From NCBI RefSeq assembly GCF_023343835.1, contig NC_064449.1, forward strand, positions 2,827,778 through 2,891,777: a stretch of DNA of 64,000 nt, given 5' to 3'. Made by a program: the position numbers and the translations under genes. The notes under the pieces are model-generated. The model ran no database searches. It saw only the letters and a program-made list of their open reading frames with translations, and was not told where the DNA came from. This stretch comes from Lagopus muta. Its lineage: Eukaryota; Chordata; Aves; Galliformes; Phasianidae. This document shows positions 10,746 through 51,961 of the stretch, in pieces. The stretch's first letter is position 1. Each line of letters starts with the position of its first letter.

Positions 10746-17971
<7,226 letters not shown>

Positions 17972-18764
17972 CCATGACCTTTAAGGACCCTTCCAACCCA
18001 ACCCATTTAGAATTCTCTGGATCCATCACCTTAAAGGACCCTTCCAACCCAACCCATTTAGAATTCTCTGGTTCCATCACCTTTAAGGTCCCTTCAAACA
18101 ATACCTATTTAGAATTCTCTGGTTCCATGACCTTGAAGGACCCTTCCACTCCAACCCATTTAGAATTCTCTGGTTCTACGACCTTTAAGAACCCTTCCAA
18201 CCCAACCCATTTAGAATACTCTGGTTCTACGACCTTTAAGAACCCTTCCAACCCAACCCATTTAGAATTCTCTGGTTCCATGACCTTTAAGGACCCTTCA
18301 AACCCAACCCATTCAGAATTCTCTGGTTCCATGACCTTTAAGGACCCTTCCAACCCAATCCATTTAGAATTCTCTGGTTCCATGACATTTAATGTCCCTT
18401 CCAACACAGCCCATTTAGAATTCTCTGGTTCCATCACCTTCAAGGACCCTTCCAAAAAAATCCATTCTGGAATTCTCTGGTTCTACGAACTTTAAGGACC
18501 CTTCCATCCCAACCCATTCCAGAATTCTCTGGTTCCATGACCTTGAAGGACCCTTCCAATCCAACCCATTTAGAATTCTCTGGTTCTACGACCTTTAAGG
18601 ACCCTTCCAACACAACCCATTTAGAATTCTCTGGTTCTACGATCTTTAAGGACCCTTCCAACCCAACCCATTTAGAATTCTCTGGTTCCATGACCTTGAA
18701 GGACCCTTCCAACCCAACCCGTTTAGAATTCTCTGGTTCCATCACCTTTAAGCACCCTTCCAAC
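17972..18764 (+). repeat. 51-bp minisatellite block 0 (left edge), about 16 units
   Basis: The edge block is the most irregular, with unique variants such as KNPSNPTHLEYS and NVPSNTAHLEF in the translated frame. That is expected for array ends, which are homogenised less. One 52-bp register variant occurs near 18475 and 18525. Confidence 0.9.
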
Positions 18765-19081
18765 TGTGAGAATCCTTCTTAGTCTTTTTTGGCTCAAAGC
18801 TTGCTTCCTGAGGTATTTCTTGTGATAAGACTCTGAGTGACTTATCAAGGAGGCAAGTGATGAGTGCTAACTGTGTGACAATCGCTTTGGGAACATTTGA
18901 AAGCCCCTTCCCCCCCCAGAGCTGCTTGCTCTGGAGAAGAGCGGAAGACAGTGCTCAGCAGTGTTCACTGGCGGAACATCTGGCCTGTGGCCAAACCGCT
19001 CCAGCTTGGTATGGCAGGCTGGAGGATGATACCATTGTATCTTGCGAAGGCAAGATGCAAGTTGGTGCCTCCCTGCTTCCT

Positions 19082-19111
19082 CTTATCTGCCGGCAAGGCC
19101 AGAAAGATAAG
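19082..19111 (+). promoter_or_regulatory. Inverted pair of GATA motifs in the LTR, example from copy 1
   Basis: CTTATCT (19082-19088) and AGATAAG (19105-19111) form an inverted pair of WGATAR motifs. A third, TGATAAG, lies near the LTR start at 18823. The pair is present in the LTR copies I read. Binding is not demonstrated. Confidence 0.5.
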
Positions 19112-19168
19112 AACAAAGCAGGTTCCTGCTGAGATCCCAGAGCCAGAAGCTGCCACCGCAAGGAGAAC

Positions 19169-19218
19169 TGACTCAACCGCCTTGGCTTTGAGCTGTCACT
19201 CAAAGGAGAGCTGACTCA
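19169..19218 (+). promoter_or_regulatory. U3 43-bp direct repeats with TGACTCA (AP-1/NF-E2-like) cores, example from LTR copy 1
   Basis: TGACTCA occurs at 19169 and 19212, spaced exactly 43 bp. The same arrangement recurs in every LTR. Short-class copies have two cores, and long-class copies have a third repeat whose middle core is TGACTCG. By reading all copies I count about 28 exact TGACTCA cores in the array. TGACTCA is the AP-1 consensus, and the flanking GC (GAGTCAGC on the other strand) extends it towards an NF-E2/Maf half-site. Function is inferred. Confidence 0.55.
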
Positions 19219-19383
19219 ACCACTTTGAAGCATTGAAAAAGGGCCATCATCACCATGGTCGTTGACGTCGTCCTTCGTCGTCAATAGAACAACAATGCCA
19301 GACGACCCACCACTACTGAAGATCAAAGACTGAACTACGAACCTCGCTGGATCCATGCTGGTGACTATGTCCCTCTTGCTTCC

Positions 19384-19508
19384 TATAAAGACGCCTTGCC
19401 ACTTCTTTCCTATCTTTTCTATCGCCCTCCTTCCTTTCCCCAGAACCCTAATTCATAAAAGTGTCCGCCCTCCTCTTCCCCATTTCCCTGATTAAGATTT
19501 GTAATAAA
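19384..19508 (+). promoter_or_regulatory. LTR core promoter and polyadenylation signal, example from copy 1
   Basis: TATAAAG at 19384 and AATAAA at 19503 are 119 bp apart in every copy, with about 99 bp from the end of AATAAA to the LTR end. This is the U3-R-U5 layout of a retroviral LTR read on the plus strand, antisense to TAOK3. It is intact in 14 of 15 copies (copy 2 has TATGAAG). Confidence 0.65.
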
Positions 19509-19607
19509 CTGGTCAGACCAACATTTGAATCGTTGCTTCTTAATCTCACGCTGGGTATATAGATAAAAAAAGAACATCCTCTCCTTCCTATAAACTGAAG
19601 CGAGACA

Positions 19608-20275
19608 CTAATCCAATCCGTTTAGAATTCTCTAGTTCTACGACCTTTAAGGACCCTTCCAACCCAACCCATTTAGAATTCTCTGGTTCCATGACCTTCA
19701 AGGACCCTTCCAACACAACACATTTAGAATTCTCTGGTTCTACGACCTTTAAGGACCCTTCCAACCAAATCCATTTAGAATTCTCTGGTTCCATGACCTT
19801 CAAGGACCCTTCCAACCCAACCCATTTAGAATTCTCTGGTTCTACGACCTTCAAGGACCCTTCCAACCCAACCCATTTAGAATTCTCTGGTTTTACGACC
19901 TTTAAGGACCCTTCCAACCCAACCCATTTAGAATTCTCTGGTTCTACGACCTTGAAGGACCCTTCCAACCCAACCCATTTAGAATTCTCTGGTTCTACGA
20001 CCTTTAAGGACCCTTCCAACACAACCCATTTAGAATTCTCTGGTTCTACCATTTTTAAGGACCCTTCCAACCCAACCTATTTAGAATTCTCTGGTTCCAT
20101 GACCTTTCAGGACCCTTCCAACCCAACCTATTTAGAATTCTCTGGTTCCATGACCTTTCAGGACCCTTCCAACCCAACCCATTTAGAATTCTCTGGTTCC
20201 ATGACCTTGAAGGACCCTTCCAACCCAACCCGTTTAGAATTCTCTGGTTCCATCACCTTTAAGCACCCTTCCAAC
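19608..20275 (+). repeat. 51-bp minisatellite block 1, about 13 units
   Basis: The block is open in the plus frame from 19691 through to the stop codon supplied 18 bp inside the next LTR. It ends with the standard five-unit series. Confidence 0.9.
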
Positions 20276-21160
20276 TGTGAGAATGCTTCTTAGTCTTTTT
20301 TGGCTCAAAGCTTGCTTCCTGAGGTATTTCTTATGATAAGACTCTGAGTGACTTGTCAAGGAGGCAAGTGATGAGTGCTAACTGTGTGACAATCGCTTTG
20401 GGAACATTTGAAAGCCCCTTCCCCCCCAGAGCTGCTTGCTCTGGAGAAGAGCGGAAGACAGTGCTCAGCAGTGTTCACTGGCGGAACATCTGGCCTGTGG
20501 CCAAACCGCTCCAGCTTGGTATGGCAGGCTGGAGGATGATACCATTGTATCTTGCGAAGGCAAGATGCAAGTTGGTGCCTCCCTGCTTCCTCTTATCTGC
20601 TGGCAAGGCCAGAAAGATAAGAACAAAGCAGGTTCCTGCTGGGATCCCAGAGCCAGAAGCTGCCACCGCAAGGAGAACTGACTCAACCGCCTTGGCTTTG
20701 AGCTGTCACTCAAAGGAGAGCTGACTCGACCACTTTGGATTTGAGCTGTCACTCCAAAGATAGCTGACTCAACCACTTTGAAGCATTGAAAAAGGGCCAT
20801 CATCACCATGGTTGTTGTCGTGGTCCTTCGTCGTCAATAGAACAACAATGCCAGACGACCCACCACTAATGAAGATCAAAGACTGAACTACGAACCTCGC
20901 TGGATCCATGCTGGTGACTATGTCCCTCTTGCTTCCTATGAAGACGCCTTGCCACTTCTTTCCTATCTTATCTATCGCCCTCCTTCCTTTCCCCAGTACC
21001 CTAGTTCATAAAAGTGTCCGCCCTCCTCTTCCCCATTTCCCTGATTAAGATTTGTAATAAACTGGTCGGACCAACATTTGAATCGTTGCTTCTTAATCTC
21101 ACGCTGGGTATATAGATAAAAAAAGAACATCCTCTCCCTCCTATAAACTGAAGCGAGACA
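20276..21160 (+). mobile_element. Solo LTR copy 2 (885 bp, long class, TATA mutated)
   Basis: The long class has an extra 43-bp U3 repeat: repeat starts are at about 20701 and 20744. The TATA box position reads TATGAAG at 20937, unlike every other copy. AATAAA at 21056 is intact. The right flank is CCAAC (21161-21165). Confidence 0.88.
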
Positions 21161-22136
21161 CCAACCAAATCCATTTAGAATTCTCTAGTTCTACGACCTT
21201 GAAGGACCCTTCCAACCCAACCCATTTAGAATTCTCAGGTTCCATGACCTTGAAGGACCCTTCCTACCCAACCCATTCTAGAATTCTCTGGTTCCATGAA
21301 CTTTAAAGTCCCTTCCAACCCAACCCATTTAGAATTCCCTGGTTCCATGACCTTTAAAGTCCCTTCCAACCCAACCCATTTAGAATTCTCTGGTTCCACG
21401 ACCTTGCAGGACTCTTCCATTCCAACCCATTCTAGAATTCTCTGGTTCCATGACCTTCAAGGACCCTTCCAACCCAACCCATTTGGAATTCTCTGGTTCT
21501 ACGACCTTGAAGGACCTTTCCAATCCAACCCATTTAGAATTCTCTGGTTCCATGACCTTTAAGGACACTTCCAACCAAATCCATTTAGAATTCTCTGGTT
21601 CCATGACCTTCAAGGACCCTTCCAACCCAACCCATTTAGAATTCTCTGGTTCTACGACCTTCAAGGACCCTTCCAACCCAACCCATTTAGAATTCTCTGC
21701 TTCTACGACCTTTAAGGACCCTTCCAACCCAACCCATTTAGAATTCTCTGGTTCCACGACCTTGAAGGACCTTTCCAATCCAACCCATTTAGAATTCTCG
21801 GGTTCTACGACCTTGAAGGACCCTTCCAACCCAACCCATTTAGAATTCTCTGGTTCTACGACCTTTAAGGACCCTTCCAACACAACCCATTCAGAATTCT
21901 CTGGTTCTACCATCTTTAAGGACCCTTCCAACCCAACCTATTTAGAATTCTCTGGTTCCATGACCTTTCAGGACCCTTCCAACCCAACCTATTTAGAATT
22001 CTCTGGTTCCATGACCTTTCTGGACCCTTCCAACCCAACCCATTTAGAATTCTCTGGTTCCATGACCTTGAAGGACCCTTCCAACCCAACCCGTTTAGAA
22101 TTCTCTGGTTCCATCACCTTTAAGCACCCTTCCAAC
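21161..22136 (+). repeat. 51-bp minisatellite block 2, about 19 units
   Basis: The block includes 52-bp variants carrying TTCTAGAATTC instead of TTTAGAATTC near 21287 and 21430, which shift the plus reading frame. The downstream part is a long stop-free run. Confidence 0.9.
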
Positions 22137-23021
22137 TGTGAGAATGCTTCTTAGTCTTTTTTGGCTCAAAGCTTGCTTCCTGAGGTATTTCTTATGATAA
22201 GACTCTGAGTGACTTGTCAAGGAGGCAAGTGATGAGTGCTAACTGTGTGACAATCGCTTTGGGAACATTTGAAAGCCCCTTCCCCCCCAGAGCTGCTTGC
22301 TCTGGAGAAGAGCGGAAGACAGTGCTCAGCAGTGTTCACTGGCGGAACATCTGGCCTGTGGCCAAACCGCTCCAGCTTGGTATGGCAGGCTGGAGGATGA
22401 TACCATTGTATCTTGCGAAGGCAAGATGCATGTTGGAGCCTCCCTGCTTCCTCTTATCTGCTGGCAAGGCCAGAAAGATAAGAACAAAGGAGGTTCCTGC
22501 TGGGATCCCAGAGCCAGAAGCTGCCACCGCAAGGAGAACTGACTCAACCGCCTTGGCTTTGAGCTGTCACTCAAAGGAGAGCTGACTCGACCACTTTGGA
22601 TTTGAGCTGTCACTCCAAAGATAGCTGACTCAACCACTTTGAAGCATTGAAAAAGGGCCATCATCACCATGGTCATTGTCGTCGTCCTTCGTCGTCAATA
22701 GAACAACAATGCCAGACGACCCACCACTAATGAAGATCAAAGACTGAACTACGAACCTCGCTGGATCCATGCTGGTGACTATGTCCCTCTTGCTTCCTAT
22801 AAAGACGCCTTGCCACTTCTTTCCTATCTTTTCTATCGCCCTCCTTCCTTTCCCCAGTACCCAAATTCATAAAAGTGTCCGCCCTCCTCTTCCCCATTTC
22901 CCTGATTAAGATTTGTAATAAACTGGTTGGACCAACATTTGAATCGTTGCTTCTTAATCTCACGCTGGGTATATAGATAAAAAAAGAACATCCTCTCCAT
23001 CCTATAAACTGAAGCGAGACA
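22137..23021 (+). mobile_element. Solo LTR copy 3 (885 bp, long class)
   Basis: TATAAAG is at 22798 and AATAAA at 22917. The right flank is CCAAC. It shares the CTCCAAAGATAGCTGACTCA version of the third 43-bp repeat with copies 2, 4 and 15. Confidence 0.88.
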
Positions 23022-24049
23022 CCAACCCAATCCATTTAGAATTCTCTAGTTCTACGACCTTTAAGGACCCTTCCAACCCAACCCATTTAGAATTCTCTGG
23101 TTCCATGACCTTGAAGGACCCTTCCAACCCAACCCAATTAGAATTCTCTGGTTCCATGACCTTTAATGTCCCTTCCAATCCAACCCATTTAGAATTCTCT
23201 GGTTCCATGACCTTGAAGGACCCTTCCAACCCAACCCATTTAGAATTCTCTGGTTCTACGACCTTTAAGGACCCTTCCAACCCAACCCATTCTAGAATTC
23301 TCTGGTTCCATGAACTTTAATGCCCCGTCCAACCGAATCCATTCTAGAATTCTCTGGTTCCATGACCTTTAAAGTCCCTTCCAACCCAACCCATTTAGAA
23401 TTCTCTGGTTCCACGACCTTGCAGGACTCTTCCATTCCAACCCATTCTAGAAGTCTCTGGATCCATGACCTTCAAGGACCCTTCCAACCCAACCCATTTA
23501 GAATTCTCTGGTTCTACGACCTTGAAGCACGTTTCCAATCCAACCCATTTAGAATTCTCTGGTTCCATGACCTTTAAGGACACTTCCAACCAAATCCATT
23601 TAGAATTCTCTGGTTCCATGACCTTCAAGGACCCTTCCAACCCAACCCATTTAGAATTCTCTGGTTCCATGACCTTTAATGTCCCTTCCAACCCAACCCA
23701 TTTAGAATTCTCTGGTTCCATGACCTTTAAGCACCCTTCCAACCCAACCCATTTAGAATTCTCTGGTTCTACGACCTTCAAGGAGCCTTCCAACACAACC
23801 CATTTAGAATTCTCTGGTTCTACGATCTTTAAGGACCCTTCCAACCTAACCCATTTAGAATTCTCTGGTTCCATGACCTTTCAGGACCCTTCCAACCCAA
23901 CCCATTAAAAATTCTCTGGTTCCATGACCTTTCAGGACCCTTCCAACCCAACCCATTTAGAATTCTCTGGTTCCATGACCTTGAAGGACCCTTCCAACCC
24001 AACCCGTTTAGAATTCTCTGGTTCCATCACCTTTAGGCACCCTTCCAAC
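23022..24049 (+). repeat. 51-bp minisatellite block 3, about 20 units
   Basis: A single-base change makes a stop (CATTAAAAATTC near 23905) that interrupts the otherwise open plus frame. 52-bp variants occur near 23290, 23340 and 23445. Confidence 0.9.
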
Positions 24050-24934
24050 TGTGAGAATCCTTCTTAGTCTTTTTTGGCTCAAAGCTTGCTTCCTGAGGTA
24101 TTTCTTGTGATAAGACTCTGAGTGACTTGTCAAGGAGGCAAGTGATGAGGGCTAACTGTGTGACAATCGCTTTGGGAACATTTGAAAGCCCCTTCCCCCC
24201 CAGAGCTGCTTGCTCTGGAGAAGAGCGGAAGACAGTGCTCAGCAGTGTTCACTGGCGGAACATCTGGCCTGTGGCCAAACCGCTCCAGCTTGGTATGGCA
24301 GGCTGGAGGATGATACCATTGTATCTTGCGAAGGCAAGATGCAAGTTGGTGCCTCCCTGCTTCCTCTTATCTGCTGGCAAGGCCAGAAAGATAAGAACAA
24401 AGCAGGTTCCTGCTGGGATCCCAGAGCCAGAAGCTGCCACCGCAAGGAGAACTGACTCAACCGCCTTGGCTTTGAGCTGTCACTCAAAGGAGAGCTGACT
24501 CGACCACTTTGGATTTGAGCTGTCACTCCAAAGATAGCTGACTCAACCACTTTGAAGCATTGAAAAAGGGCCATCATCACCATGGTTGTTGTCGTCGTCC
24601 TTCGTCGTCAATAGAACAACAATGCCAGACGACCCACCACTACTGAAGATCAAAGACTGAACTACGAACCTCGCTGGATCCATGCTGGTGACTATGTCCC
24701 TCTTGCTTCCTATAAAGACGCCTTGCCACTTCTTTCCTATCTTATCTATCGCCCTCCTTCCTTTCCCCAGTACCCAAATTCATAAAAGTGTCCGCCCTCC
24801 TCTTCCCCATTTCCCTGATTAAGATTTGTAATAAACTGGTCGGACCAACATTTGAATCGTTGCTTCTTAATCTCACGCTGGGTATATAGATAAAAAAAGA
24901 ACATCCTCTCCCTCCTATAAACTGAAGCGAGACA
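24050..24934 (+). mobile_element. Solo LTR copy 4 (885 bp, long class)
   Basis: TATAAAG is at 24711 and AATAAA at 24830. The flanks are CCAAC on both sides. It is otherwise very close to copies 2 and 3. Confidence 0.88.
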
Positions 24935-26375
24935 CCAACCCAATCCATTTAGAATTCTCTAGTTCTACGACCTTTAAGGACCCTTCCAACCCAACCCATT
25001 TAGAATTCTCTGGTTCCATGACCTTGAAGGACCCTTCCAACCCAACCCATTTAGAATTCTCAGGTTCCATGACCTTGAAGGACCCTTCCAACCCAACCCA
25101 TTCTAGAATTCTCTGGTTCCATGAACTTTAATGTCCCTTCCAACCGAATCCATTCTAGAATTCTCTGGTTCCATGACCTTTAAGGACCCTACCATTCCAA
25201 CCCATTCTAGAATTCTCTGGTTCCATGACCTTTAATGTCCCTTCCAACCCAACCCATTTAGAATTCTCTGGTTCTACGACCTTTAAGGACCCTTCCAACC
25301 CAACCCAACCCATTTAGAATTCTCTGGTTCTACGACCTTGAAGGACCTTTCCATTCCAACCCATTTAGAATTCTCTGGTTCCATGACCTTGAAGGACACT
25401 TCCAACCCAATCCATTTAGAATTCTCTGGTTCCATGACCTTCAAGGACCCTTCCAACCCAACCCATTTAGAATTCTCTGGTTCCACGACCTTGAAGGACC
25501 TTTCCAATCCAACCCATTTAGAATTCTCTGGTTCTACGACCTTGAAGGACCCTTCCAACACAACCCATTTAGAATTCTCTGGTTCTACGACCTTTAAGGA
25601 CCCTTCCAACACAACCCATTTAGAATTCTCTGGTTCTACCATCTTTAAGGACCTTTCCATTCCAACCCATTTAGAATTCTCTGGTTCCATGACCTTTCAG
25701 GACCCTTCCAACCCAACCTATTTAGAATTCTCTGGTTCCATGACCTTCAAAGACCCTTCCAACCCAACCCATTTAGAATTCTCTGGTTCCACGACCTTGA
25801 AGGACCCTTCCAACCCAACCCATTTAGAATTCTCTGGTTCCATGACCTTTAAGGACACTTCCAATAAAATCCATTTAGAATTCTCTGGTTCCACGACCTT
25901 GAAGGACCTTTCCAATCCAACCCACTTAGAATTCTCTGGTTCTACGACCTTTAAGGACCCTTCCAACCCAACCTATTTAGAATTCTCTGGTTCCATGACC
26001 TTTCAGGACCCTTCCAACCCAACCCATTTAGAATTCTCTGGTTCTACGACCTTGAAGGACCCTTTCAACCCAACCCATTTAGAATTCTCTGGTTCTACGA
26101 CCTTTAAGGACCCTTCCAACACAACCCATTTAGAATTCTCTGGTTCTACCAACTTTAAGGACCCTTCCAACCCAACCTATTTAGAATTCTCTGGTTCCAT
26201 GACCTTTCAGGACCCTTCCAACCCAACCTATTTAGAATTCTCTGGTTCCATGACCTTTCAGGACCCTTCCAACCCAACCCATTTAGAATTCTCTGGTTCC
26301 ATGACCTTGAAGGAAACTTCCAACCCAACCCGTTTAGAATTCTCTGGTTCCATCACCTTTAAGCACCCTTCCAAC
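24935..26375 (+). repeat. 51-bp minisatellite block 4, about 28 units
   Basis: The block carries a 351-codon stop-free plus frame (25338-26393). One unit has a 5-bp AACCC insertion (near 25295). Much of the block matches block 5 at an offset of 2335 bp. Confidence 0.92.
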
Positions 26376-27218
26376 TGTGAGAATGCTTCTTAGTCTTTTT
26401 TGGCTCAAAGCTTGCTTCCTGAGGTATTTCTTATGATAAGACTCTGAGTGACTTGTCAAGGAGGCAAGTGATGAGTGCTAACTGTGTGACAATCGCTTTG
26501 GGAACATTTGAAACCCCTTCACCCCCCCAGAGCTGCTTGCTCTGGAGAAGAGCGGAAGACAGTGCTCAGCAGTGTTCACTGGCGGAACATCTGGCCTGTG
26601 GCCAAACCGCTCCAGCTTGGTATGGCAGGCTGGAGGATGATACCATTGTATCTTGCGAAGGCAAGATGCAAGTTGGAGCCTCCCTGCTTCCTCTTATCTG
26701 CTGGCAAGGCCAGAAAGATAAGAACAAAGCAGGTTCCTGCTGAGATCCCAGAGCCAGAAGCTGCCACCGCAAGGAGAACTGACTCAACCGCCTTGGCTTT
26801 GAGCTGTCACTCAAAGGAGAGCTGACTCAACCACTTTGAAGCATTGAAAAAGGGCCATCATCACCATGGTCGTTGTCGTCGTCCTTCGTCGTCAATAGAA
26901 CAACAATGCCAGACGACCCACCACTACTGAAGATCAAAGACTGAACTACGAACCTCGCTGGATCCATGCTGGTGACTATGTCCCTCTTGCTTCCTATAAA
27001 GACGCCTTGCCACTTCTTTCCTATCTTATCTATCGCCCTCCTTCCTTTCCCCAGAACCCTAATTCATAAAAGTGTCCGCCCTCCTCTTCCCCATTTCCCT
27101 GATTAAGATTTGTAATAAACTGGTCGGACCAACATTTGAATCGTTGCTTCTTAATCTCACGCTGGGTATATAGATAAAAAAAGAACATCCTCTCCCTCCT
27201 ATAAACTGAAGCGAGACA
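26376..27218 (+). mobile_element. Solo LTR copy 5 (843 bp, short class)
   Basis: TATAAAG is at 26995 and AATAAA at 27114. The flanks are CCAAC on both sides. It has the short U3 with two TGACTCA cores. Confidence 0.88.
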
Positions 27219-28761
27219 CCAACCCAATCCATTTAGAATTCTCTAGTTCTACGACCTTGAAGGACCCTTCCAACCCAACCCATTTAGAATTCTCTGGTTC
27301 CATGACCTTGAAGGACCCTTCCAACCCAACCCATTTAGAATTCTCTGGTTCCATGACCTTGAAGGACCCTTCCAACCCAACCCATTTAGAATTCTCAGGT
27401 TCCATGACCTTGAAGGACCCTTCCAACCCAACCCATTCTAGAATTCTCTGGTTCCATGAACTTTAATGTCCCTTCCAACCGAATCCATTCTAGAATTCTC
27501 TGGTTCCATGACCTTTAAGGACCCTACCATTCCAACCCATTCTAGAATTCTCTGGTTCCATGACCTTTAATGTCCCTTCCAACCCAACCCATTTAGAATT
27601 CTCTGGTTCTACGACCTTTAAGGACCCTTCCAACCCAACCCAACCCATTTAGAATTCTCTGGTTCTACGACCTTGAAGGACCTTTCCATTCCAACCCATT
27701 TAGAATTCTCTGGTTCCATGACCTTGAAGGACACTTCCAACCCAATCCATTTAGAATTCTCTGGTTCCATGACCTTCAAGGACCCTTCCAACCCAACCCA
27801 TTTAGAATTCTCTGGTTCCACGACCTTGAAGGACCTTTCCAATCCAACCCATTTAGAATTCTCTGGTTCTACGACCTTGAAGGACCCTTCCAACACAACC
27901 CATTTAGAATTCTCTGGTTCTACGACCTTTAAGGACCCTTCCAACACAACCCATTTAGAATTCTCTGGTTCTACCATCTTTAAGGACCTTTCCATTCCAA
28001 CCCATTTAGAATTCTCTGGTTCCATGACCTTTCAGGACCCTTCCAACCCAACCTATTTAGAATTCTCTGGTTCCATGACCTTCAAAGACCCTTCCAACCC
28101 AACCCATTTAGAATTCTCTGGTTCCACGACCTTGAAGGACCCTTCCAACCCAACCCATTTAGAATTCTCTGGTTCCATGACCTTTAAGGACACTTCCAAT
28201 AAAATCCATTTAGAATTCTCTGGTTCCACGACCTTGAAGGACCTTTCCAATCCAACCCACTTAGAATTCTCTGGTTCTACGACCTTCAAGGACCCTTCCA
28301 ACCCAACCCATTTAGAATTCTCTGGTTCTACGACCTTTAAGGACCCTTCCAACCCAACCTATTTAGAATTCTCTGGTTCCATGACCTTTCAGGACCCTTC
28401 CAACCCAACCCATTTAGAATTCTCTGGTTCTACGACCTTGAAGGACCCTTTCAACCCAACCCATTTAGAATTCTCTGGTTCTACGACCTTTAAGGACCCT
28501 TCCAACACAACCCATTTAGAATTCTCTGGTTCTACCAACTTTAAGGACCCTTCCAACCCAACCTATTTAGAATTCTCTGGTTCCATGACCTTTCAGGACC
28601 CTTCCAACCCAACCTATTTAGAATTCTCTGGTTCCATGACCTTTCAGGACCCTTCCAACCCAACCCATTTAGAATTCTCTGGTTCCATGACCTTGAAGGA
28701 AACTTCCAACCCAACCCGTTTAAAATTCTCTGGTTCCATCACCTTTAAGCACCCTTCCAAC
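27219..28761 (+). repeat. 51-bp minisatellite block 5, about 30 units
   Basis: The block is like block 4 with two extra units. It contains the longest open frame of the array (368 codons, 27673-28779). Its 3' half recurs as the 3' half of block 7. Confidence 0.92.
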
Positions 28762-38557: not shown

Positions 38558-40301
38558 CCAACCCAATCCATTTAGAATTCTCTAGTTCTACGACCTTTAA
38601 GGACCCTTCCAACCCAACCCATTTAGAATTCTCAGGTTCCATGACCTTGAAGGACCCTTCCAACCCAACCCATTCTAGAATTCTCTGGTTCCATGAACTT
38701 TAATGTCCCTTCCAACCGAATCCATTCTAGAATTCTCTGGTTCCATGACCTTTAAGGACCCTACCATTCCAACCCATTCTAGAATTCTCTGGTTCCATGA
38801 CCTTTAATGTCCCTTCCAACCCAACCCATTTAGAATTCTCTGGTTCTACGACCTTTAAGGACCCTTCCAACCCAACCCATTTAGAATTCTCTGGTTCTAC
38901 GACCTTGAAGGACCTTTCCATTCCAACCCATTTAGAATTCTCTGGTTCCATGACCTTTAAGGACACTTCCAACCAAATCCATTTAGAATTCTCTGGTTCC
39001 ATGACCTTCAAGGACCCTTCCAACCCAACCCATTTAGAATTCTCTGGTTCTACGACCTTCAAGGACCCTTCCAACCCAACCCATTTAGAATTCTCTGGTT
39101 CTACGACCTTTAAGGACCCTTCCAAACAAACCCATTTAGAATTCTCTGGTTCCACGACCTTGAAGGACCTTTCCAATCCAACCCATTTAGAATTCTCTGG
39201 TTCTACGACCTTGAAGGACCCTTCCAACCCAACCCATTTAGAATTCTCTGGTTCTACGACCTTTAAGGACCCTTCCAACACAACCCATTTAGAATTCTCT
39301 GGTTCTACCATCTTTAAGGACCCTTCCAACCCAACCTATTTAGAATTCTCTGGTTCCATGACCTTTCAGGACCCTTCCAACCCAACCTATTTAGAATTCT
39401 CTGGTTCCATGACCTTTCAGGACCCTTCCAACCCAACCCATTTAGAATTCATTGGTTCCATGACCTTTAATGTCCCTTCCAACCCAACCCATTTAGAATT
39501 CTCTGGTTCTACGACCTTTAAGGACCCTTCCAACCCAACCCATTTAGAATTCTCTGGTTCTACGACCTTGAAGGACCTTTCCAATCCAACCCATTCTAGA
39601 ATTCTCTGGTTCCATGACCTTTAATGTCCCTTCCAACCCAACCCACTTAGAATTCTCTGGTTCTACGACCTTTAAGGACCCTTCCAACCCAACCCATTTA
39701 GAATTCTCTGGTTCTACGACCTTGAAGGACCTTTCCAATCCAACCCATTTAGAATTCTCTGGTTCCATGACCTTTAAGGACACTTCCAACCAATTCCATT
39801 TAGAATTCTCTGGTTCCATGACCTTCAAGGACCCTTCCAACCCAACCCATTTAGAATTCTCTGGTTCTACGACCTTGAAGGACCCTTCCAACCCAACCCA
39901 TTCTAGAATTCTCTGGTTCCATGAACTTTAAGGACCCTTCCAACCCAACCTATTTAGAATTCTCTGGTTCCATGACCTTTCAGGACCCTTCCAACCCAAC
40001 CCATTTAGAATTCTCGGGTTCTACGACCTTTAAGGACCCTTCCAACCCAACCCATTTAGAATTCTCTGGTTCTACGACCTTTAAGGACCCTTCCAACCCA
40101 ACCTATTTAGAATTCTCTGGTTCCATGACCTTTCAGGACCCTTCCAACCCAACCTATTTAGAATTCTCTGGTTCCATGACCTTTCAGGACCCTTCCAACC
40201 CAACCCATTTAGAATTCTCTGGTTCCATGACCTTGAAGGACCCTTCCAACCCAACCCGTTTAGAATTCTCTGGTTCCATCACCTTTAAGTACCCTTCCAA
40301 C
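38558..40301 (+). repeat. 51-bp minisatellite block 10, about 34 units
   Basis: The block contains a 275-codon open frame (38797-39624). Block 12 is this block with about 1226 bp (24 units) missing from its interior. Confidence 0.92.
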
Positions 40302-41187
40302 TGTGAGAATCCTTCTTAGTCTTTTTTGGCTCAAAGCTTGCTTCCTGAGGTATTTCTTGTGATAAGACTCTGAGTGACTTGTCAAGGAGGCAAGTGATGA
40401 GTGCTAACTGTGTGACAATCGCTTTGGGAACATTTGAAACCCCTTCACCCCCCCAGAGCTGCTTGCTCTGGAGAAGAGCGGAAGACAGTGCTCAGCAGTG
40501 TTCACTGGCGGAACATCTGGCCTGTGGCCAAACCGCTCCAGCTTGGTATGGCAGGCTGGAGGATGATACCATTGTATCTTGCGAAGGCAAGATGCAAGTT
40601 GGTGCCTCCCTGCTTCCTCTTATCTGCTGGCAAGGCCAGAAAGATAAGAACGAAGGAGGTTCCTGCTGAGATCCCAGAGCCAGAAGCTGCCACCGCAAGG
40701 AGAACTGACTCAACCGCCTTGGCTTTGAGCTGTCACTCAAAGGAGAGCTGACTCGACCACTTTGGATTTGAGCTGTCACTCCAAGGATAGCTGACTCAAC
40801 CACTTTGAAGCATTGAAAAAGGGCCATCATCACCATGGTCTTTGTCGTCGTCCTTCGTCGTCAATAGAACAACAATGCCAGACGACCCACCACTACTGAA
40901 GATCAAAGACTGAACTACGAACCTCGCTGGATCCATGCTGGTGACTATGTCCCTCTTGCTTCCTATAAAGACGCCTTGCCACTTCTTTCCTATCTTTTCT
41001 ATCGCCCTCCTTCCTTTCCCCAGAACCCTAATTCATAAAAGTGTCCGCCCTCCTCTTCCCCATTTCCCTGATTAAGATTTGTAATAAACTGGTTGGACCA
41101 ACATTTGAATCGTTGCTTCTTAATCTCACGCTGGGTATATAGATAAAAAAAGAACATCCTCTCCTTCCTATAAACTGAAGTGAGACA
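40302..41187 (+). mobile_element. Solo LTR copy 11 (886 bp, long class)
   Basis: TATAAAG is at 40964 and AATAAA at 41083. The right flank is CCAAG instead of CCAAC, as it also is in copies 12 and 13. Confidence 0.88.
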
Positions 41188-42263
41188 CCAAGCCAATCCA
41201 TTTAGAATTCTCTAGTTCTACGACCTTTAAGGACCCTTCCAACCCAACCCATTTAGAATTCTCTGGTTCCATGACCTTGAACGACCCTTCCAACACAACC
41301 CATTTAGAATTCTCTGGTTCTACGACCTTTAAGGACCCTTCCAACCCAACCCATTTAGAATTCTCTGGTTCTACGTCCTTGAAGGACCTTTCCAATCCAA
41401 TCCATTTAGAATTCTCTGGTTCCATGACCTTTAAGGACACTTCCAACCAAATCCATTTAGAATTCTCTGGTTCCATGACCTTCAAGGACCCTTCCAACCC
41501 AACCCATTTAGAATTCTCTGGTTCTACGACCTTGAAGGACCCTTCCAACCCAACCCATTTAGAATTCTCTGGTTCCATGACCTTTAATGTCCCTTCCAAC
41601 CCAACCCATTTAGAATTCTCTGGTTCCATGACCTTCAAGGACCCTTCCAACCCAACCCATTTAGAATTCTCTGGTTCCATGACCTTCAAGGACCCTTCCA
41701 ACCAAACGCATTTAGAATTCTCTGGTTCTACGACCTTTAAGGACCCTTCCAACCCAACCCATTTAGAATTCTCTGGTTCCATGACCTTCAAGGACCCTTC
41801 CAACCCAACCCATTTAGAATTCTCTGGTTCCATGACCTTTAATGTCCGTTCCAACCCAACCCATTTAGAATTCTCTGGTTCCACGACCTTGAAGGACCTT
41901 TCCAATCCAACCCATTTAGAATTCTCTGGTTCTACGACCTTGAAGGACCCTTCCAACACAACACATTTAGAATTCTCTGGTTCTACGACCTTTAAGGACC
42001 CTTCCAACACAACCCATTTAGAATTCTCTGGTTCTACCATCTTTAAGGACCCTTCCAACCCAACCTATTTAGAATTCTCTGGTTCCATGACCTTTCAGGA
42101 CCCTTCCAACCCAACCTATTTAGAATTCTCTGGTTCCATGACCTTTCAGGACCCTTCCAACCCAACCCATTTAGAATTCTCTGGTTCCATGACCTTGAAG
42201 GACCCTTCCAACCCAACCTGTTTAGAATTCTCTGGTTCCATCACCTTTAAGCACCCTTCCAAC
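41188..42263 (+). repeat. 51-bp minisatellite block 11, about 21 units
   Basis: The block is stop-free on the plus strand from 41271 to the stop in LTR copy 12 (336 codons) and nearly so on the minus strand (296 codons). The last units match block 9. Confidence 0.92.
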
Positions 42264-43106
42264 TGTGAGAATCCTTCTTAGTCTTTTTTGGCTCAAAGCT
42301 TGCTTCCTGAGGTATTTCTTGTGATAAGACTCTGAGTGACTTGTCAAGGAGGCAAGTGATGAGTGCTAACTGTGTGACAATCGCTTTGGGATCATTTGAA
42401 AGCCCCTTCCCCCCCCAGAGCTGCTTGCTCTGGAGAAGAGCGGAAGACAGTGCTCAGCAGTGTTCACTGGCGGAACATCTGGCCTGTGGCCAAACCGCTC
42501 CAGCTTTGTATGGCAGGCTGGAGGATGATACCATTGTATCTTGCGAAGGCAAGATGCAAGTTGGAGCCTCCCTGCTTCCTCTTATCTGCTGGCAAGGCCA
42601 GAAAGATAAGAACGAAGGAGGTTCCTGCTGAGATCCCAGAGCCAGAAGCTGCCACCGCAAGGAGAACTGACTCAACCGCCTTGGCTTTGAGCTGTCACTC
42701 AAAGGAGAGCTGACTCAACCACTTTGAAGCATTGAAAAAGGGCCATCATCACCATGGTCGTTGTCGTCGTCCTTCGTCGTCAATAGAACAACAATGCCAG
42801 ACGACCCACCACTACTGAAGATCAAAGACTGAACTACGAACCTCGCTGGATCCATGCTGGTGACTATGTCCCTCTTGCTTCCTATAAAGACGCCTTGCCA
42901 CTTCTTTCCTATCTTTTCTATCGCCCTCCTTCCTTTCCCCAGTACCCTAATTCATAAAAGTGTCCGCCCTCCTCTTCCCCATTTCCCTGCTTAAGATTTG
43001 TAATAAACTGGTCGGACCAACATTTGAATCGTTGCTTCTTAATCTCACGCTGGGTATATAGATAAAAAAAGAACATCCTCTCCTTCCTATAAACTGAAGT
43101 GAGACA
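42264..43106 (+). mobile_element. Solo LTR copy 12 (843 bp, short class)
   Basis: TATAAAG is at 42883 and AATAAA at 43002. It is the duplicate of copy 10 (+4549 bp). The right flank is CCAAG. Confidence 0.88.
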
Positions 43107-43624
43107 CCAAGCCAATCCATTTAGAATTCTCTAGTTCTACGACCTTTAAGGACCCTTCCAACCCAACCCATTTAGAATTCTCAGGTTCCATGACCTTGAA
43201 GGACCCTTCCAACCCAACCCATTCTAGAATTCTCTGGTTCCATGAACTTTAATGTCCCTTCCAACCGAATCCATTCTAGAATTCTCTGGTTCCATGACCT
43301 TTAAGGACCCTACCATTCCAACCCATTCTAGAATTCTCTGGTTCCATGACCTTTAATGTCCCTTCCAACCCAACCCATTTAGAATTCTCTGGTTCTACGA
43401 CCTTTAAGGACCCTTCCAACCCAACCCATTTAGAATTCTCTGGTTCTACGACCTTGAAGGACCTTTCCATTCCAACCCATTTAGAATACTCTGGTTCCAT
43501 GACCTTTAAGGACACTTCCAACCAAATCCATTTAGAATTCTCTGGTTCCATGACCTTCAAGGACCCTTCCAACCCAACCCGTTTAGAATTCTCTGGTTCC
43601 ATCACCTTTAAGTACCCTTCCAAC
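43107..43624 (+). repeat. 51-bp minisatellite block 12, about 10 units (shortest)
   Basis: This is an internally deleted version of block 10: both ends are kept, and the middle 24 units are missing. It shows that blocks contract as well as expand. Confidence 0.9.
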
Positions 43625-44510
43625 TGTGAGAATCCTTCTTAGTCTTTTTTGGCTCAAAGCTTGCTTCCTGAGGTATTTCTTGTGATAAGACTCTGAGTGA
43701 CTTGTCAAGGAGGCAAGTGATGAGTGCTAACTGTGTGACAATCGCTTTGGGAACATTTGAAACCCCTTCACCCCCCCAGAGCTGCTTGCTCTGGAGAAGA
43801 GCGGAAGACAGTGCTCAGCAGTGTTCACTGGCGGAACATCTGGCCTGTGGCCAAACCGCTCCAGCTTGGTATGGCAGGCTGGAGGATGATACCATTGTAT
43901 CTTGCGAAGGCAAGATGCAAGTTGGTGCCTCCCTGCTTCCTCTTATCTGCTGGCAAGGCCAGAAAGATAAGAACGAAGGAGGTTCCTGCTGAGATCCCAG
44001 AGCCAGAAGCTGCCACCGCAAGGAGAACTGACTCAACCGCCTTGGCTTTGAGCTGTCACTCAAAGGAGAGCTGACTCGACCACTTTGGATTTGAGCTGTC
44101 ACTCAAAGGAGAGCTGACTCAACCACTTTGAAGCATTGAAAAAGGGCCATCATCACCATGGTCTTTGTCGTCGTCCTTCGTCGTCAATAGAACAACAATG
44201 CCAGACGACCCACCACTACTGAAGATCAAAGACTGAACTACGAACCTCGCTGGATCCATGCTGGTGACTATGTCCCTCTTGCTTCCTATAAAGACGCCTT
44301 GCCACTTCTTTCCTATCTTTTCTATCGCCCTCCTTCCTTTCCCCAGAACCCTAATTCATAAAAGTGTCCGCCCTCCTCTTCCCCATTTCCCTGATTAAGA
44401 TTTGTAATAAACTGGTTGGACCAACATTTGAATCGTTGCTTCTTAATCTCACGCTGGGTATATAGATAAAAAAAGAACATCCTCTCCTTCCTATAAACTG
44501 AAGTGAGACA
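43625..44510 (+). mobile_element. Solo LTR copy 13 (886 bp, long class)
   Basis: TATAAAG is at 44287 and AATAAA at 44406. Its third 43-bp repeat reads CACTCAAAGGAGAGCTGA, like the second repeat, where other long copies have CTCCAAAGATAG or CTCCAAGGATAG. This suggests gene conversion between neighbouring 43-bp repeats. Confidence 0.88.
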
Positions 44511-45893
44511 CCAAGCCAATCCATTTTGAATTCTCTAGTTCTACGACCTTTAAGGACCCTTCCAACACAACCCATTTAGAATTCTCTGGTTCTACGACCT
44601 TTAAGGACCCTTCCAACCCAACCCATTTAGAATTCTCTGGTTCTACGTCCTTGAAGGACCTTTCCAATCCAATCCATTTAGAATTCTCTGGTTCCATGAC
44701 CTTTAAGGACACTTCCAACCAAATCCATTTAGAATTCTCTGGTTCCATGACCTTCAAGGACCCTTCCAACCCAACCCATTTAGAATTCTCTGGTTCTACG
44801 ACCTTTAAGGACCCTTCCAACCCAACCCATTTAGAATTCTCTGGTTCCATGACCTTTAATGTCCCTTCCAACCCAACCCATTTAGAATTCTCTGGTTCCA
44901 TGACCTTCAAGGACCCTTCCAACCCAACCCATTTAGAATTCTCTGGTTCCATGACCTTTAATGTCCCTTCCAACCCAACCCATTTAGAATTCTCTGGTTC
45001 CACGACCTTGAACGACCTTTCCAATCCAACCCATTTAGAATTCTCTGGTTCTACGAATTTTAAGGACCCTTCCAACACAACACATTTAGAATTCTCTGGT
45101 TCCATGAACTTTAAAGTCCCTTCCAACCCAACCCATTCTAGAATTCTCTGGTTCCATGACCTTTAAAGTCCCTTCCAACCCAACCCATTTAGAATTCTCT
45201 GGTTCTACGACCTTGAAGGACCCTTCCAACCCAACCCATTTAGAATTCTCTGGTTCTACGACCTTGAAGGACCTTTCCAATCCAATCCATTTAGAATACT
45301 CTGGTTCCATGACCTTTAAGGACACTTCCAACCAAATCCATTTAGAATTCTCTGGTTCTACGACCTTGAAGGACCCTTCCAACCCAACCCATTTAGAATT
45401 CTCTGGTTCTACGACCTTTAAGGACCCTTCCAACCCAACCCATTTAGAATTCTCTGGTTCCATGACCTTTAATGTCCCTTCCAACCCAACCCATTTAGAA
45501 TTCTCTGGTTCCATGACCTTCAAGAACCCTTCCAAGCCAACCCATTTAGAATTCTCTGGTTCCACGACCTTGAAGGACCTTTCCAATCCAACCCATTTAG
45601 AATTCTCTGGTTCTACGACCTTTAAGGACCCTTCCAACCCAACCCATTTAGAATTCTCTGGTTCTACGACCTTTAAGGACCCTTCCAACCCAACCCATTT
45701 AGAATTCTCTGGTTCTACCATCTTTAAGGACCCTTCCAACCTAACCCATTTAGAATTCTCTGGTTCCATGACCTTTCAGGACCCTTCCAACCCAACCCAT
45801 TTAGAATTCTCTGGTTCCATGACCTTGAAGGACCCTTCCAACCCAACCCGTTTAGAATTCATTGGTTCCATCACCTTTAAATACCCTTCCAAC
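44511..45893 (+). repeat. 51-bp minisatellite block 13, about 27 units
   Basis: The block contains two plus open frames (44651-45166, 45156-45911) separated by a 52-bp register variant, and matching open minus frames. Confidence 0.9.
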
Positions 45894-46735
45894 TGTGAGA
45901 ATGCTTCTTAGTCTTTTTTGGCTCAAAGCTTGCTTCCTGAGGTATTTCTTGTGATAAGACTCTGAGTGACTTGTCAAGGAGGCAAGTGATGAGTGCTAAC
46001 TGTGTGACAATCGCTTTGGGAACATTTGAAAGCCCCTTCCCCCCCAGAGCTGCTTGCTCTGGAGAAGAGCGGAAGACAGTGCTCAGCAGTGTTCACTGGC
46101 GGAACATCTGGCCTGTGGCCAAACCGCTCCAGCTTGGTATGGCAGGCTGGAGGATGATACCATTGGATCTTGCGAAGGCAAGATGCAAGTTGGTGCCTCC
46201 CTGCTTCCTCTTATCTGCTGGCAAGGCCAGAAAGATAAGAACAAAGCAGGTTCCTGCTGAGATCCCAGAGCCAGAAGCTGCCACCGCAAGGAGAACTGAC
46301 TCAACCGCCTTGGCTTTGAGCTGTCACTCAAAGGAGAGCTGACTCAACCACTTTGAAGCATTGATAAAGGGCCATCATCACCATGGTCGTTGTCGTCGTC
46401 CTTCGTCGTCAATAGAACAACAATGCCAGACGACCCACCACTAATGAAGATCAAAGACTGAACTACGAACCTCGCTGGATCCATGCTGGTGACTATGTCC
46501 CTCTTGCTTCCTATAAAGACGCCTTGCCACTTCTTTCCTATCTTATCTATCGCCCTCCTTCCTTTCCCCAGTACCCTCATTCATAATAGTGTCCGCCCTC
46601 CTCTTCCCCATTTCCCTGATTAAGATTTGTAATAAACTGGTCGGACCAACATTTGAATCGTTGCTTCTTAATCTCACGCTGGGTATATAGATAAAAAAAG
46701 AACATCCTCTCCCTCCTATAAACTGAAGCGAGACA
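45894..46735 (+). mobile_element. Solo LTR copy 14 (842 bp, short class)
   Basis: TATAAAG is at 46512 and AATAAA at 46631. It is one base shorter in the C-run near 46040. The private change CATTGATAAAGG replaces CATTGAAAAAGG. The right flank is CCAAC. Confidence 0.88.
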
Positions 46736-48687
46736 CCAACCCAATCCATTTAGAATTCTCTGGTTCTACGACCTTTAAGGACCCTTCCAACCCAATCCAT
46801 TTAGAATTCTCTGGATCCACGACCTTGAGGGACCCTTCCAATCCAACCCATTCTAGAATTCTCTGGTTCCATGACCTTTAATGTCCCTTCCAACCCAACC
46901 TATTTAGAATTCTCTGGTTCCATGACCTTTCAGGACCCTTCCAACACAACCCATTTAGAATTCTCTGGTTCTACGACCTTGAAGGACACTTCCAACCCAA
47001 TCCATTTAGAATTCTCTAGTTCTACGGCCTTTAAGGACCCTTCCAACCCAACCCATTTAGAATTCTCTGGTTTCAAGACCTTGAAGGACACTTCCAACCC
47101 AACCCATTCTAGAATTCTCTGGTTCCAGGACCTTGAAGGACCCTTCCATTCCAACCCATTCTAGAATTCTCTGGTTCCATGACCTTTAAGGACCCTTCCA
47201 ACCCAACCCATTTAGAATTCTCTGGTTTCAAGACCTTTAAGCACCCTTCCAACCCAACCCATTTAGAATTCTCTGGTTCTACGACCTTGAAGGACCTTTC
47301 CAATCCAACCCATTTAGAATTCTCTGGTTCCATGACCTTTAAGGACACTTCCAACCAAATCCATTTAGAATTCACTGGTTCCATGACCTTGAAGGACCCT
47401 TCCAACCGAATCCATTCTAGAATTCTCTGGTTCCACGACCTTGAGGGACCCTTCCAATCCAACCCATTCTAGAATTCTCTGGTTGCATGACCATTAATGT
47501 CCCTTCCAACCCAACCCATTTAGAATTCTCTGGTTCTACGACCTTGAAGGACCCTTCCAACACAACCCATTTAGAATTCTCTAGTTCCATGACCTTTAAG
47601 GACCCTTCCAACCCAACCCATTTAGAATTCTCTGGTTTCAAGACCTTGAAGGACACTTCCAACCCAACCCATTCTAGAATTCTCTGGTTCCACGACCTTG
47701 AAGGACCCTTCCATTCCAACCCATTCTAGAATTCTCTGGTTCCATGACCTTGAAGGACCCTTCCAACCCAACCCATTTAGAATTCTCTGGTTTCAAGACC
47801 TTTAAGCACCCTTCCAACCCAACCCATTTAGAATTCTCTGGTTCTACGACCTTGAAGGACCTTTCCAATCCAACCCATTTAGAATTCTCTGGTTCCATGA
47901 CCTTGAAGGACCCTTCCAACCGAATCCATTCTAGAATTCCCTGGTTCCATGACCTTTAATGTCCCTTCCAACCCAACCCATTTAGAATTCTCTGGTTCCA
48001 CGACCTTGAAGGACCCTTCCATTCCAACCCATTCTAGAATTCTCTGGTTCCATGACCTTCAAGGACCCTTCCAACCCAACCCATTTAGAATTCTCTGGTT
48101 CTACGACCTTTAAGGACCCTTCCAACCCAACCCATTTAGAATTCTCTGGTTCTACGACCTTGAAGGACCTTTCCAATCCAACCCATTTGGAATTCTCTGG
48201 TTCCATGACCTTTAAGGACACTTCCAACCAAATCCATTTAGAATTCTCTTGTTCCATGACCTTCAAGGACCCTTCCAACCCAACCCATTTAGAATTCTCT
48301 GGTTCTACGACCTTTAAGGACCCTTCCAACCCAACCCATTTAGAATTCTCTGGTTCTACGACCTTTAAGGACCCTTCCAACCCAACCCATTTAGAATTCT
48401 CTGGTTCCACGACCTTGAAGGACCTTTCCAATCCAACCCATTTAGAATTCTCTGGTTCTACGACCTTTAAGGACCCTTCCAACACAACCCATTTAGAATT
48501 CTCTGGTTCTACCATCTTTAAGGACCCTTCCAACCCAACCTATTTAGAATTCTCTGGTTCCATGACCTTTCAGGACCCTTCCAACCCAACCCATTTAGAA
48601 TTCTCTGGTTCCATGACCTTGAAGGACCCTTCCAACCCAACCTGTTTAGAATTCTCTGGTTCCATCACCTTTAAGCACCCTTCCAAC
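46736..48687 (+). repeat. 51-bp minisatellite block 14, about 38 units (longest)
   Basis: This block has a local higher-order pattern seen nowhere else: units with GGTTTCAAGACC (aa GFKTFKH, GFKTLKD), alternating with 52-bp TTCTAGAATTC units in two cycles (46850-47470 and 47470-47960). Its plus frame is therefore broken several times. Confidence 0.9.
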
Positions 48688-49573
48688 TGTGAGAATCCTT
48701 CTTAGTCTTTTTTGGCTCAAAGCTTGCTTCCTGAGGTATTTCTTGTGATAAGACTCTGAGTGACTTGTCAAGGAGGCAAGTGATGAGTGCTAACTGTGTG
48801 ACAATCGCTTTGGGATCATTTGAAAGCCCCTTCCCCCCCCAGAGCTGCTTGCTCTGGAGAAGAGCGGAAGACAGTGCTCAGCAGTGTTCACTGGCGGAAC
48901 ATCTGGCCTGTGGCCAAACCGCTCCAGCTTTGTATGGCAGGCTGGAGGATGATACCATTGTATCTTGCGAAGGCAAGATGCAAGTTGGAGCCTCCCTGCT
49001 TCCTCTTATCTGCTGGCAAGGCCAGAAAGATAAGAACGAAGGAGGTTCCTGCTGAGATCCCAGAGCCAGAAGCTGCCACCGCAAGGAGAACTGACTCAAC
49101 CGCCTTGGCTTTGAGCTGTCACTCAAAGGAGAGCTGACTCGACCACTTTGGATTTGAGCTGTCACTCCAAAGATAGCTGACTCAACCACTTTGAAGCATT
49201 GAAAAAGGGCCATCATCACCATGGTCGTTGTCGTCGTCCTTCGTCGTCAATAGAACAACAATGCCAGACGACCCACCACTACTGAAGATCAAAGACTGAA
49301 CTACGAACCTCGCTGGATCCATGCTGGTGACTATGTCCCTCTTGCTTCCTATAAAGATGCCTTGCCACTTCTTTCCTATCTTATCTATCGCCCTCCTTCC
49401 ATTCCCCAGTACCCTAATTCATAATAGTGTCCGCCCTCCTCTTCCCCATTTCCCTGATTAAGATTTGTAATAAACTGGTCGGACCAACATTTGAATCGTT
49501 GCTTCTTAATCTCACGCTGGGTATATAGATAAAAAAAGAACATCCTCTCCCTCCTATAAACTGAAGCGAGACA
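48688..49573 (+). mobile_element. Solo LTR copy 15 (886 bp, long class, right edge)
   Basis: TATAAAG is at 49350 (followed by ATGCC instead of ACGCC) and AATAAA at 49469. Private changes include CCATTCCCC and CATAATAGTG, the latter shared with copy 14. The right flank is CCAAC. Confidence 0.88.
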
Positions 49574-50330
49574 CCAACCCAAACCATTTAGAATTCTCTA
49601 GTTCTACGACCTTTAGGGACCCTTCCAACCCAACCCATTTAGAATTCTCTGGTTTCATGACCTTGAAGGACACTTCCAACCCAAACCATTTAGAATTCTC
49701 TGGTTCCATCACCTTGAAGGACCCTTCCAACCCAACCCATTTAGAATTCTCTGGTTCCATGACCATTAAGGACCCTTCCAACCCAACCCATTTAGAATTC
49801 TCTGGTTCCATGACCTTGAAGGACCCTTCCAACCAAAACCATTTAGAATTCTCTGGTTCTACAACCTTAAAAGACCCTTCCAAACCAACCCATTTAGAAT
49901 TCTCTGGTTCCATCACCTTTAAGGACCCTTCTAATCCAACCCACTTAGACTTCTCTGGTTCTACGACCTTTAAGGACCCTTCCAACCCAACCCATTCTAG
50001 AATTCTCTGGTTCCATGACCTTTAATGACTCTTCCAACCCAACCCATTTAGAATTCTCTGGTTCCACGACCTTTAATGTCCCTTCCAACCCAACCTATTT
50101 AGAATTCTCTGGTTCCATGACCTTTCAGGACCCTTCCAACCCAACCCATTTAGAATTCTCCGTTTCCATGACCTTGAAGGACCCTTCCAACCCAACCCTT
50201 TTCGAATTCTCTGGTTCCATGACTTTTCAGGACCCTTCCAACCCAATCCATTTAGAATTTTCTGGTTCTACAACATTATGGACTCTTCCAACACAACCTA
50301 TTCTAGAATTCTAGAATTCTGAAATTCTAG
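49574..50330 (+). repeat. 51-bp minisatellite block 15 (right edge), about 15 units, ending in a CR1-like tail
   Basis: These are divergent edge units. The block ends at 50301-50330 in tandem TTCTAGAA motifs, which resemble the short 8-bp ATTCTATG-type repeats that terminate CR1 elements. This supports the CR1 origin of the unit and places the element's 3' end here. Confidence 0.85.

Positions 50331-51961
<1,631 letters not shown>

Follow-up and report, generated by a model that had tools for sequence, protein, structure and literature searches.

We analysed a window of 64,000 nucleotides from the genome of Lagopus muta (NC_064449.1, 2.83-2.89 Mb on a 12.68-Mb contig), as sampled from one assembly, in which one intron of the conserved kinase gene TAOK3 is largely filled by a compound tandem array of minisatellite units and solo long terminal repeats (LTRs). 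The gene lies on the minus strand, with the GT of the intron at 50993/50992 and the AG at 15700/15699, and the HRDIK codons rejoin across these splice sites. The exon following the intron had as its top solved-structure match 6bdn, 'Serine/threonine-protein kinase TAO3' (E 5.8e-12), and then TAO2 (E 1.2e-9), and the exon preceding it, taken alone, had no solved-structure match at E 0.01; the exons on both sides of the array are intact. At 32,359 bp the array takes up 91.7% of the intron (0.917 of 35,295 bp), in agreement with the initial annotation, which had placed it above 90% of 35.3 kb and had counted 15 solo LTRs and about 380 minisatellite units. Alignment of the first LTR copy (18765-19607) to the window returned 15 copies, all on the plus strand, 842-886 bp long and covering its full 843 bp, and the units come to 376 (361 uninterrupted and 15 split by an LTR) plus partial edge units, so that both counts hold. 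With Tandem Repeats Finder scores of up to 5025, the array cannot be put down to chance.

The array copies have the features of solo LTRs, namely TG...CA ends, an AATAAA, a target duplication and no internal sequence, and their pairwise identity ranges between 97.5 and 100% (mean 98.5). Between them stand blocks of uninterrupted units, most of which are 51 bp long (316, with 40 of 52, 4 of 56 and 1 of 50 bp), and the two partial edge units measure 31 and 42 bp. The LTR splits its unit at the same point in all 15 cases, leaving 46 bp to its left and 10 bp to its right (the sum minus 5 being 51). The 5-mer on the left is CCAAC at 15 of 15 copies, and that on the right is CCAAC at 11, CCAAG at three and CTAAT at one. 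Neighbouring unit sequence is shared as well: CATCACC occurs in all 15 left remnants, whereas that base is carried by 23 of the 316 uninterrupted units of 51 bp, and CTCTAGTT occurs in the first unit to the right of the LTR at 14 of the 15 copies and in only two more of the 361 units elsewhere. Because the LTR copies occupy an identical position in the unit and carry the same 5-bp duplication (CCAAC), they go back to a single founding insertion that was amplified together with the units around it, which bears out the joint amplification of LTR and minisatellite proposed in the initial annotation.

Duplication within the array has proceeded in register. The longest exact repeats measure 4,515, 1,350 and 976 bp, the first being tandem (Table 1). 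When units are labelled by type, the string of block 6 equals that of block 8, and block 7 joins, in register, a head like that of block 9 to a tail like that of block 5, a junction that unequal crossing over between two blocks would give. The LTR copies have also exchanged sequence, as all four combinations are present at 104 of 276 informative site pairs, and a second GCTGTCACTC, by which an additional 43-bp copy inside the LTR can be recognised, is found in 8 of the 15 array LTRs and in none of 20 dispersed LTRs of the same family (see below), so that this extra copy arose after the insertion. The 361 units fall into 130 types, 55 of which are seen more than once and cover 286 units. Types seen only once make up 12/14 units of block 0 (86%) and 13/14 of block 15 (93%), 42-46% of blocks 1-3 and 14, 27% of block 13, 4/33 units of block 10 (12%) and 1/14 of block 9 (7%), and are lacking from blocks 4-8, 11 and 12; private substitutions in the LTRs are likewise confined to copies 1-4 and 13-15. 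Mostly unique variants at the edges, almost entirely shared ones in the centre and an exact tandem repeat of 4,515 bp are what unequal crossing over in register would be expected to leave, and we infer recombination of this kind to be the cause of the duplications. As LTRs 6-13 alternate between 843 and 886 bp, we also weighed a strict higher-order repeat of two LTRs, and rejected it: the likeness of the heads of blocks 7 and 9 to the heads of blocks 11 and 13 is only 92-94%, and unrelated block heads compare at about 89-93%. Owing to this weak likeness our claim goes no further than two separate duplications of two LTRs each (6-7 to 8-9 and 10-11 to 12-13).

The 4,515-bp exact repeat would also be the main ground for regarding the array as wholly or partly an artefact of assembly, produced by false duplication or by the merging of haplotypes. 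We consider such an origin unlikely in view of the 130 types among 361 units, the differing divergence of the repeats, the private LTR substitutions toward both ends and the intact flanking exons; what suspicion there is falls mainly on the exact duplication.

The 51-bp unit resembles a sequence that we take to be the 3' tail of a CR1 long interspersed nuclear element (LINE). As a 38-base pattern this tail has six exact places in the bird's own assembly, which was the genome searched throughout (1.03 Gb, 165 contigs), and none when the pattern is read backwards. The unit agrees with the tail at 33 of 37 positions (score 49), a likeness beyond chance: the highest control score was 35 both for 2000 dinucleotide shuffles and for 1228 flank windows, and 29 for 1000 simple shuffles. 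A search with a 401-bp minisatellite query, with 38 of 255 candidates scored, located related arrays in at least 18 further places at 70-90% identity (among the matches listed, nine on contig C41, two on C1 and one each on C25, C27, C59, C31, C7, C50 and C127), which makes at least 19 in the genome with that of TAOK3 included. The basic period of the 10 sister arrays that were fetched (L021-L030, from contigs C41, C25, C27, C59, C1, C7 and C31) is 51 bp in five, 52, 50, 49 and 43 bp in one each, and irregular (279/52) in one; the LTR was not found in any of these 10. The unit consensi of nine of them match the same CR1 tail (31/37 bases at the weakest, 40/43 at the longest), and two adjoin CR1-like sequence, a 65-bp stretch (75%) at L022 and a 118-bp stretch (73%) at L030 that lies 66 bp from the array start, both of which align with a CR1-tail locus from a point upstream of the tail on into it. 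The TAOK3 array ends on its right with ATTCTAGAATTCTAGAATTCTG, and ATTCTATG octamers stand at the right edge of L022 and L027; a conserved hairpin and an octamer microsatellite are described for CR1 3' ends in the available portion of PMC4316615.

Convergence between the minisatellite and an unrelated CR1 tail would be in keeping with a match that spans 37 of the 51 bp and with the lack of adjoining CR1 sequence at TAOK3. It is nevertheless improbable in our judgement, given that the score was reached by none of the 2000 dinucleotide shuffles or 1228 flank windows, that nine sister consensi match the same tail and that CR1-like sequence lies upstream at 2 of the 10 sister arrays. A CR1 origin of the TAOK3 minisatellite would thus rest on the unit and on the sister arrays, because the TAOK3 flanks have no CR1 match.

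Several sister arrays lie near contig ends (C27, 5.83 of 5.88 Mb; C7, 70.65 of 71.21 Mb; C1, 0.47 and 0.82 of 194.9 Mb), and the nine on C41 are concentrated on a contig of 0.69 Mb. The left flanks of L024 and L025 (C41/C27) are nearly the same, which suggests that these two arrays may have spread by segmental duplication. The 43-bp array at L029:552-8427 has about 182 copies and higher periods of 87 and 130 bp.

The LTRs are antisense to TAOK3, with AATAAA on the plus strand in 15/15 copies and TATAAA some 220 bp ahead of the LTR end in 14/15, and the TAOK3 sense strand has no AATAAA across the array. The GC skew, taken in 2-kb steps, lies between -0.20 and -0.46 wholly inside the array and between -0.18 and +0.02 wholly outside it, and the gene sense strand of the array has 339 four-run GG motifs where the opposite strand has 30 (flank of 15.7 kb: 15 and 8, respectively). 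From these signals one could argue that the array is functional, its 15 LTR promoters or its G-rich sense strand regulating TAOK3 through antisense transcription, R-loops or slow elongation. We give this very little credence: the length of the blocks varies freely, and the predicted RNA fold of two units is the same whether or not G-quadruplexes are allowed, so that folding did not support a G-quadruplex reading. Judging from the sequence, we take the array to be tolerated and not used; it would be spliced out with the intron, and the antisense orientation of its promoter-like and AATAAA signals would make it tolerable to the gene.

The LTR belongs to a dispersed family. The genome search gave 1849 first-look candidates, 40 of which were scored, and seven of the 40 were LTRs of the array; the 20 dispersed LTRs compared here are drawn from 33 non-array places, of which the best 21 were taken and one (with its first 20 bases missing) omitted, and are a sample neither random nor complete. 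Perfect 5-bp target duplications flank 17 of the 20 (60-bp flanks examined). By this duplication length, which is associated with ERVL-class retroviruses, the family is presumably linked to that class. Two of the dispersed LTRs, L037 and L038, stand 4.8 kb apart on one strand with GCACT in both outer flanks, and the left flank of L035 is that of L038, a pattern by which these three look like provirus LTRs. Pairs of LTRs on the same strand, their starts 4.8-4.9 kb apart, are located at C2:26050677-26056297, C59:12399153-12404804 and C57:63025-68835 and are probable proviruses of the array's LTR family. In a joint alignment of 788 columns, in each of which at most 4 of the 20 dispersed LTRs are gapped, the array LTRs are 98.3% identical to one another and the dispersed LTRs 95.0%, identity across the two groups is 91.7% (89.9-94.4), and at 18 columns the array is fixed for a base absent from all 20. 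The dispersal of the family could be cited in favour of 15 independent insertions into a hotspot minisatellite, an explanation of negligible probability that is ruled out by the identical junctions (the same unit phase in 15/15 and common flanking unit variants), with the 18 array-only bases and the single strand also speaking against it. A second compound array was not present among the scored candidates of either search (40/1849 for the LTR, 38/255 for the minisatellite).

Taking these results together, we are confident, short of certainty, that the array is a compound megasatellite, selfish and probably without function, that arose in three steps. First, a CR1 LINE lying in the TAOK3 intron would have supplied the 3' tail from which the 51-bp minisatellite expanded, as the likeness of the unit suggests. 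Second, a retrovirus of the dispersed family inserted once in one unit, duplicating 5 bp (CCAAC), and would then have been reduced to a solo LTR, since the full-length LTRs have only minisatellite between them. Third, misaligned recombination between units in the 51-bp register would have duplicated stretches with one or two LTRs and their flanking units until 15 LTRs were present, the centre continuing to turn over and the edges, seldom reached by exchange, diverging. By this route a LINE-tail-like minisatellite and the LTR of an endogenous retrovirus (ERV) would together have enlarged to 35.3 kb a kinase intron that otherwise comprises about 2.9 kb, the kinase being a conserved one; such growth of non-coding DNA is striking and mechanistically familiar. 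One 32-kb stretch preserves an unusually legible record of the birth of a megasatellite: a likely seed, a single LTR insertion with its 5-bp scar, crossover junctions in register and an edge-to-centre gradient. The array is also a candidate hypervariable locus for asking what large intronic arrays do to genes. More speculatively, and with considerable doubt on our part, CR1 3' tails may be a general nursery of bird minisatellites, born separately with periods of 43-52 bp, and TAOK3 may represent the next stage, at which the landing of an LTR yields a compound megasatellite able to fill an intron and to place in it 15 promoter/terminator units in antisense orientation.

Several observations weigh against this history. 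Six of the eight central LTR copies form identical pairs (6/8, 7/9 and 10/12), and in those six no private substitution is possible, so that part of the absence of such substitutions from the centre follows from the pairing itself. The right 5-mer is altered at LTRs 1, 11, 12 and 13, and misassembly could account for the exact repeat of 4,515 bp. The array LTRs are farther from the dispersed LTRs than these are from one another, and to judge by the alignment the founder is either old or of a separate subfamily. Within the array the TAOK3 sense strand has 31 ATTAAA. No CR1 sequence matched either flank of the TAOK3 array, and only 2 of the 10 fetched sister arrays adjoin CR1-like sequence upstream of the tail, the other eight being tail-like at most or not at all. 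For CR1 3' ends the portion of PMC4316615 available gives only the hairpin and the octamer microsatellite.

The array works like known compound arrays in its main features. Its copies run head to tail in the same orientation over more than 10 kb, and its centre is homogenised and its edges diverged as regards unit types, the LTR part of this comparison being limited by the identical pairs. The exception is a repeat unit of constant length, which is typical of compound megasatellites but not essential to them: blocks span 9-37 uninterrupted units. The initial annotation had described a repeating unit of minisatellite block plus complete solo LTR and had called the array unusual; the compound unit stands and a monomer of fixed length does not, and the array is unusual, with an especially readable history, without being new in kind, as human compound tandem arrays had already been described (PMC2588610). 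According to the extract of that paper, a unit of about 6 kb at 4p11 joins LINE, LTR and DNA-transposon pieces to blocks of about 1.6 kb of a 147-bp satellite, and a higher-order unit on human chromosomes 13, 18 and 21 contains one inserted full-length LTR6A. Those megasatellites share with the TAOK3 array tandem units built of transposon pieces. Their units are of about 3.5-6 kb and the LTR arrays lie generally in segmental duplications, the largest three being pericentromeric (PMC2588610), whereas the TAOK3 array is intronic and joins one complete LTR to a variable block of 51-bp CR1-tail-like minisatellite.

Other systems are comparable in part, again as far as extracts of the papers describe them. 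In rye subtelomeric repeats (PMC4857426), as at TAOK3, tandem repeats and adjacent elements expand together, and solo LTRs are enriched; unlike TAOK3, these are many arrays in plant heterochromatin, and a regular array of one LTR per block is not seen in the extract. The Kronos ERVs of the chicken chromosome 32 centromere core (PMC9974502) likewise place ERV sequence in tandem in a bird, but as three full-length elements at a centromere and, in the extract, with no minisatellite partner seen. The 14-kb crow satellite crowSat1 (PMC6115840), compared by description only, is also a bird tandem repeat with a large unit. Minisatellites and CR1 are both treated for chicken in PMC4992247, whose extract does not link them to each other. 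Among the papers listed by literature searches, none describes, to judge by title and beginning of abstract, the TAOK3 LTR-minisatellite array or CR1-tail minisatellites, and TAOK3 is absent from a set of 10 of the listed papers; a text search of the literature for the array sequences matched two papers, in both cases through a chicken primer, and exact-pattern scans of viral and prokaryote sequence collections gave no stretches, a result that says little given those collections.

Table 1. Positions in the window of the TAOK3 intron, its flanking exons and the components of the compound array
Feature	Position	Strand	Size	Remarks
TAOK3 intron	15699..50993	-	35,295 bp	GT..AG; Arg codon of HRDIK split AG/G
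TAOK3 exon preceding intron	50994..51090	-	32 aa	
TAOK3 exon following intron	15585..15698	-		low end is a GTGAGT donor, read by eye; best structure match TAO3 (6bdn)
Whole compound array	17972..50330	.		main part to 50312, then degenerate tail to about 50330
Block 0	17972..18764	+	14 uninterrupted units	plus partial edge unit
LTR 1	18765..19607	+	843 bp	
Block 1	19608..20275	+	12 units	
LTR 2	20276..21160	+	885 bp	extra 43-bp copy; without upstream TATAAA
Block 2	21161..22136	+	18 units	
LTR 3	22137..23021	+	885 bp	extra 43-bp copy
Block 3	23022..24049	+	19 units	
LTR 4	24050..24934	+	885 bp	extra 43-bp copy
Block 4	24935..26375	+	27 units	
LTR 5	26376..27218	+	843 bp	
Block 5	27219..28761	+	29 units	
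LTR 6	28762..29604	+	843 bp	identical to LTR 8
Block 6	29605..31454	+	35 units	unit string same as block 8
LTR 7	31455..32340	+	886 bp	extra 43-bp copy; identical to LTR 9
Block 7	32341..33365	+	19 units	head as block 9, tail as block 5
LTR 8	33366..34208	+	843 bp	
Block 8	34209..36058	+	35 units	
LTR 9	36059..36944	+	886 bp	extra 43-bp copy
Block 9	36945..37714	+	14 units	tail string as block 11
LTR 10	37715..38557	+	843 bp	identical to LTR 12
Block 10	38558..40301	+	33 units	
LTR 11	40302..41187	+	886 bp	extra 43-bp copy; 99.8% to LTR 13
Block 11	41188..42263	+	20 units	
LTR 12	42264..43106	+	843 bp	
Block 12	43107..43624	+	9 units	resembles block 10 minus its middle
LTR 13	43625..44510	+	886 bp	extra 43-bp copy
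Block 13	44511..45893	+	26 units	
LTR 14	45894..46735	+	842 bp	
Block 14	46736..48687	+	37 units	internal higher period about 308 bp, 6.4 copies
LTR 15	48688..49573	+	886 bp	extra 43-bp copy
Block 15	49574..50330	+	14 units	plus degenerate end
Exact tandem repeat, left copy	28092..32606	+	4,515 bp	offset 4604
Exact tandem repeat, right copy	32696..37210	+	4,515 bp	

The blocks also contain long stop-free frames with 17-aa repeats, one of 385 aa at 27622-28779 on the plus strand and one of 298 aa at 41168-42064 on the minus strand (the TAOK3 sense strand). As 51 is a multiple of 3, such frames are expected in the blocks and are not evidence of a gene.

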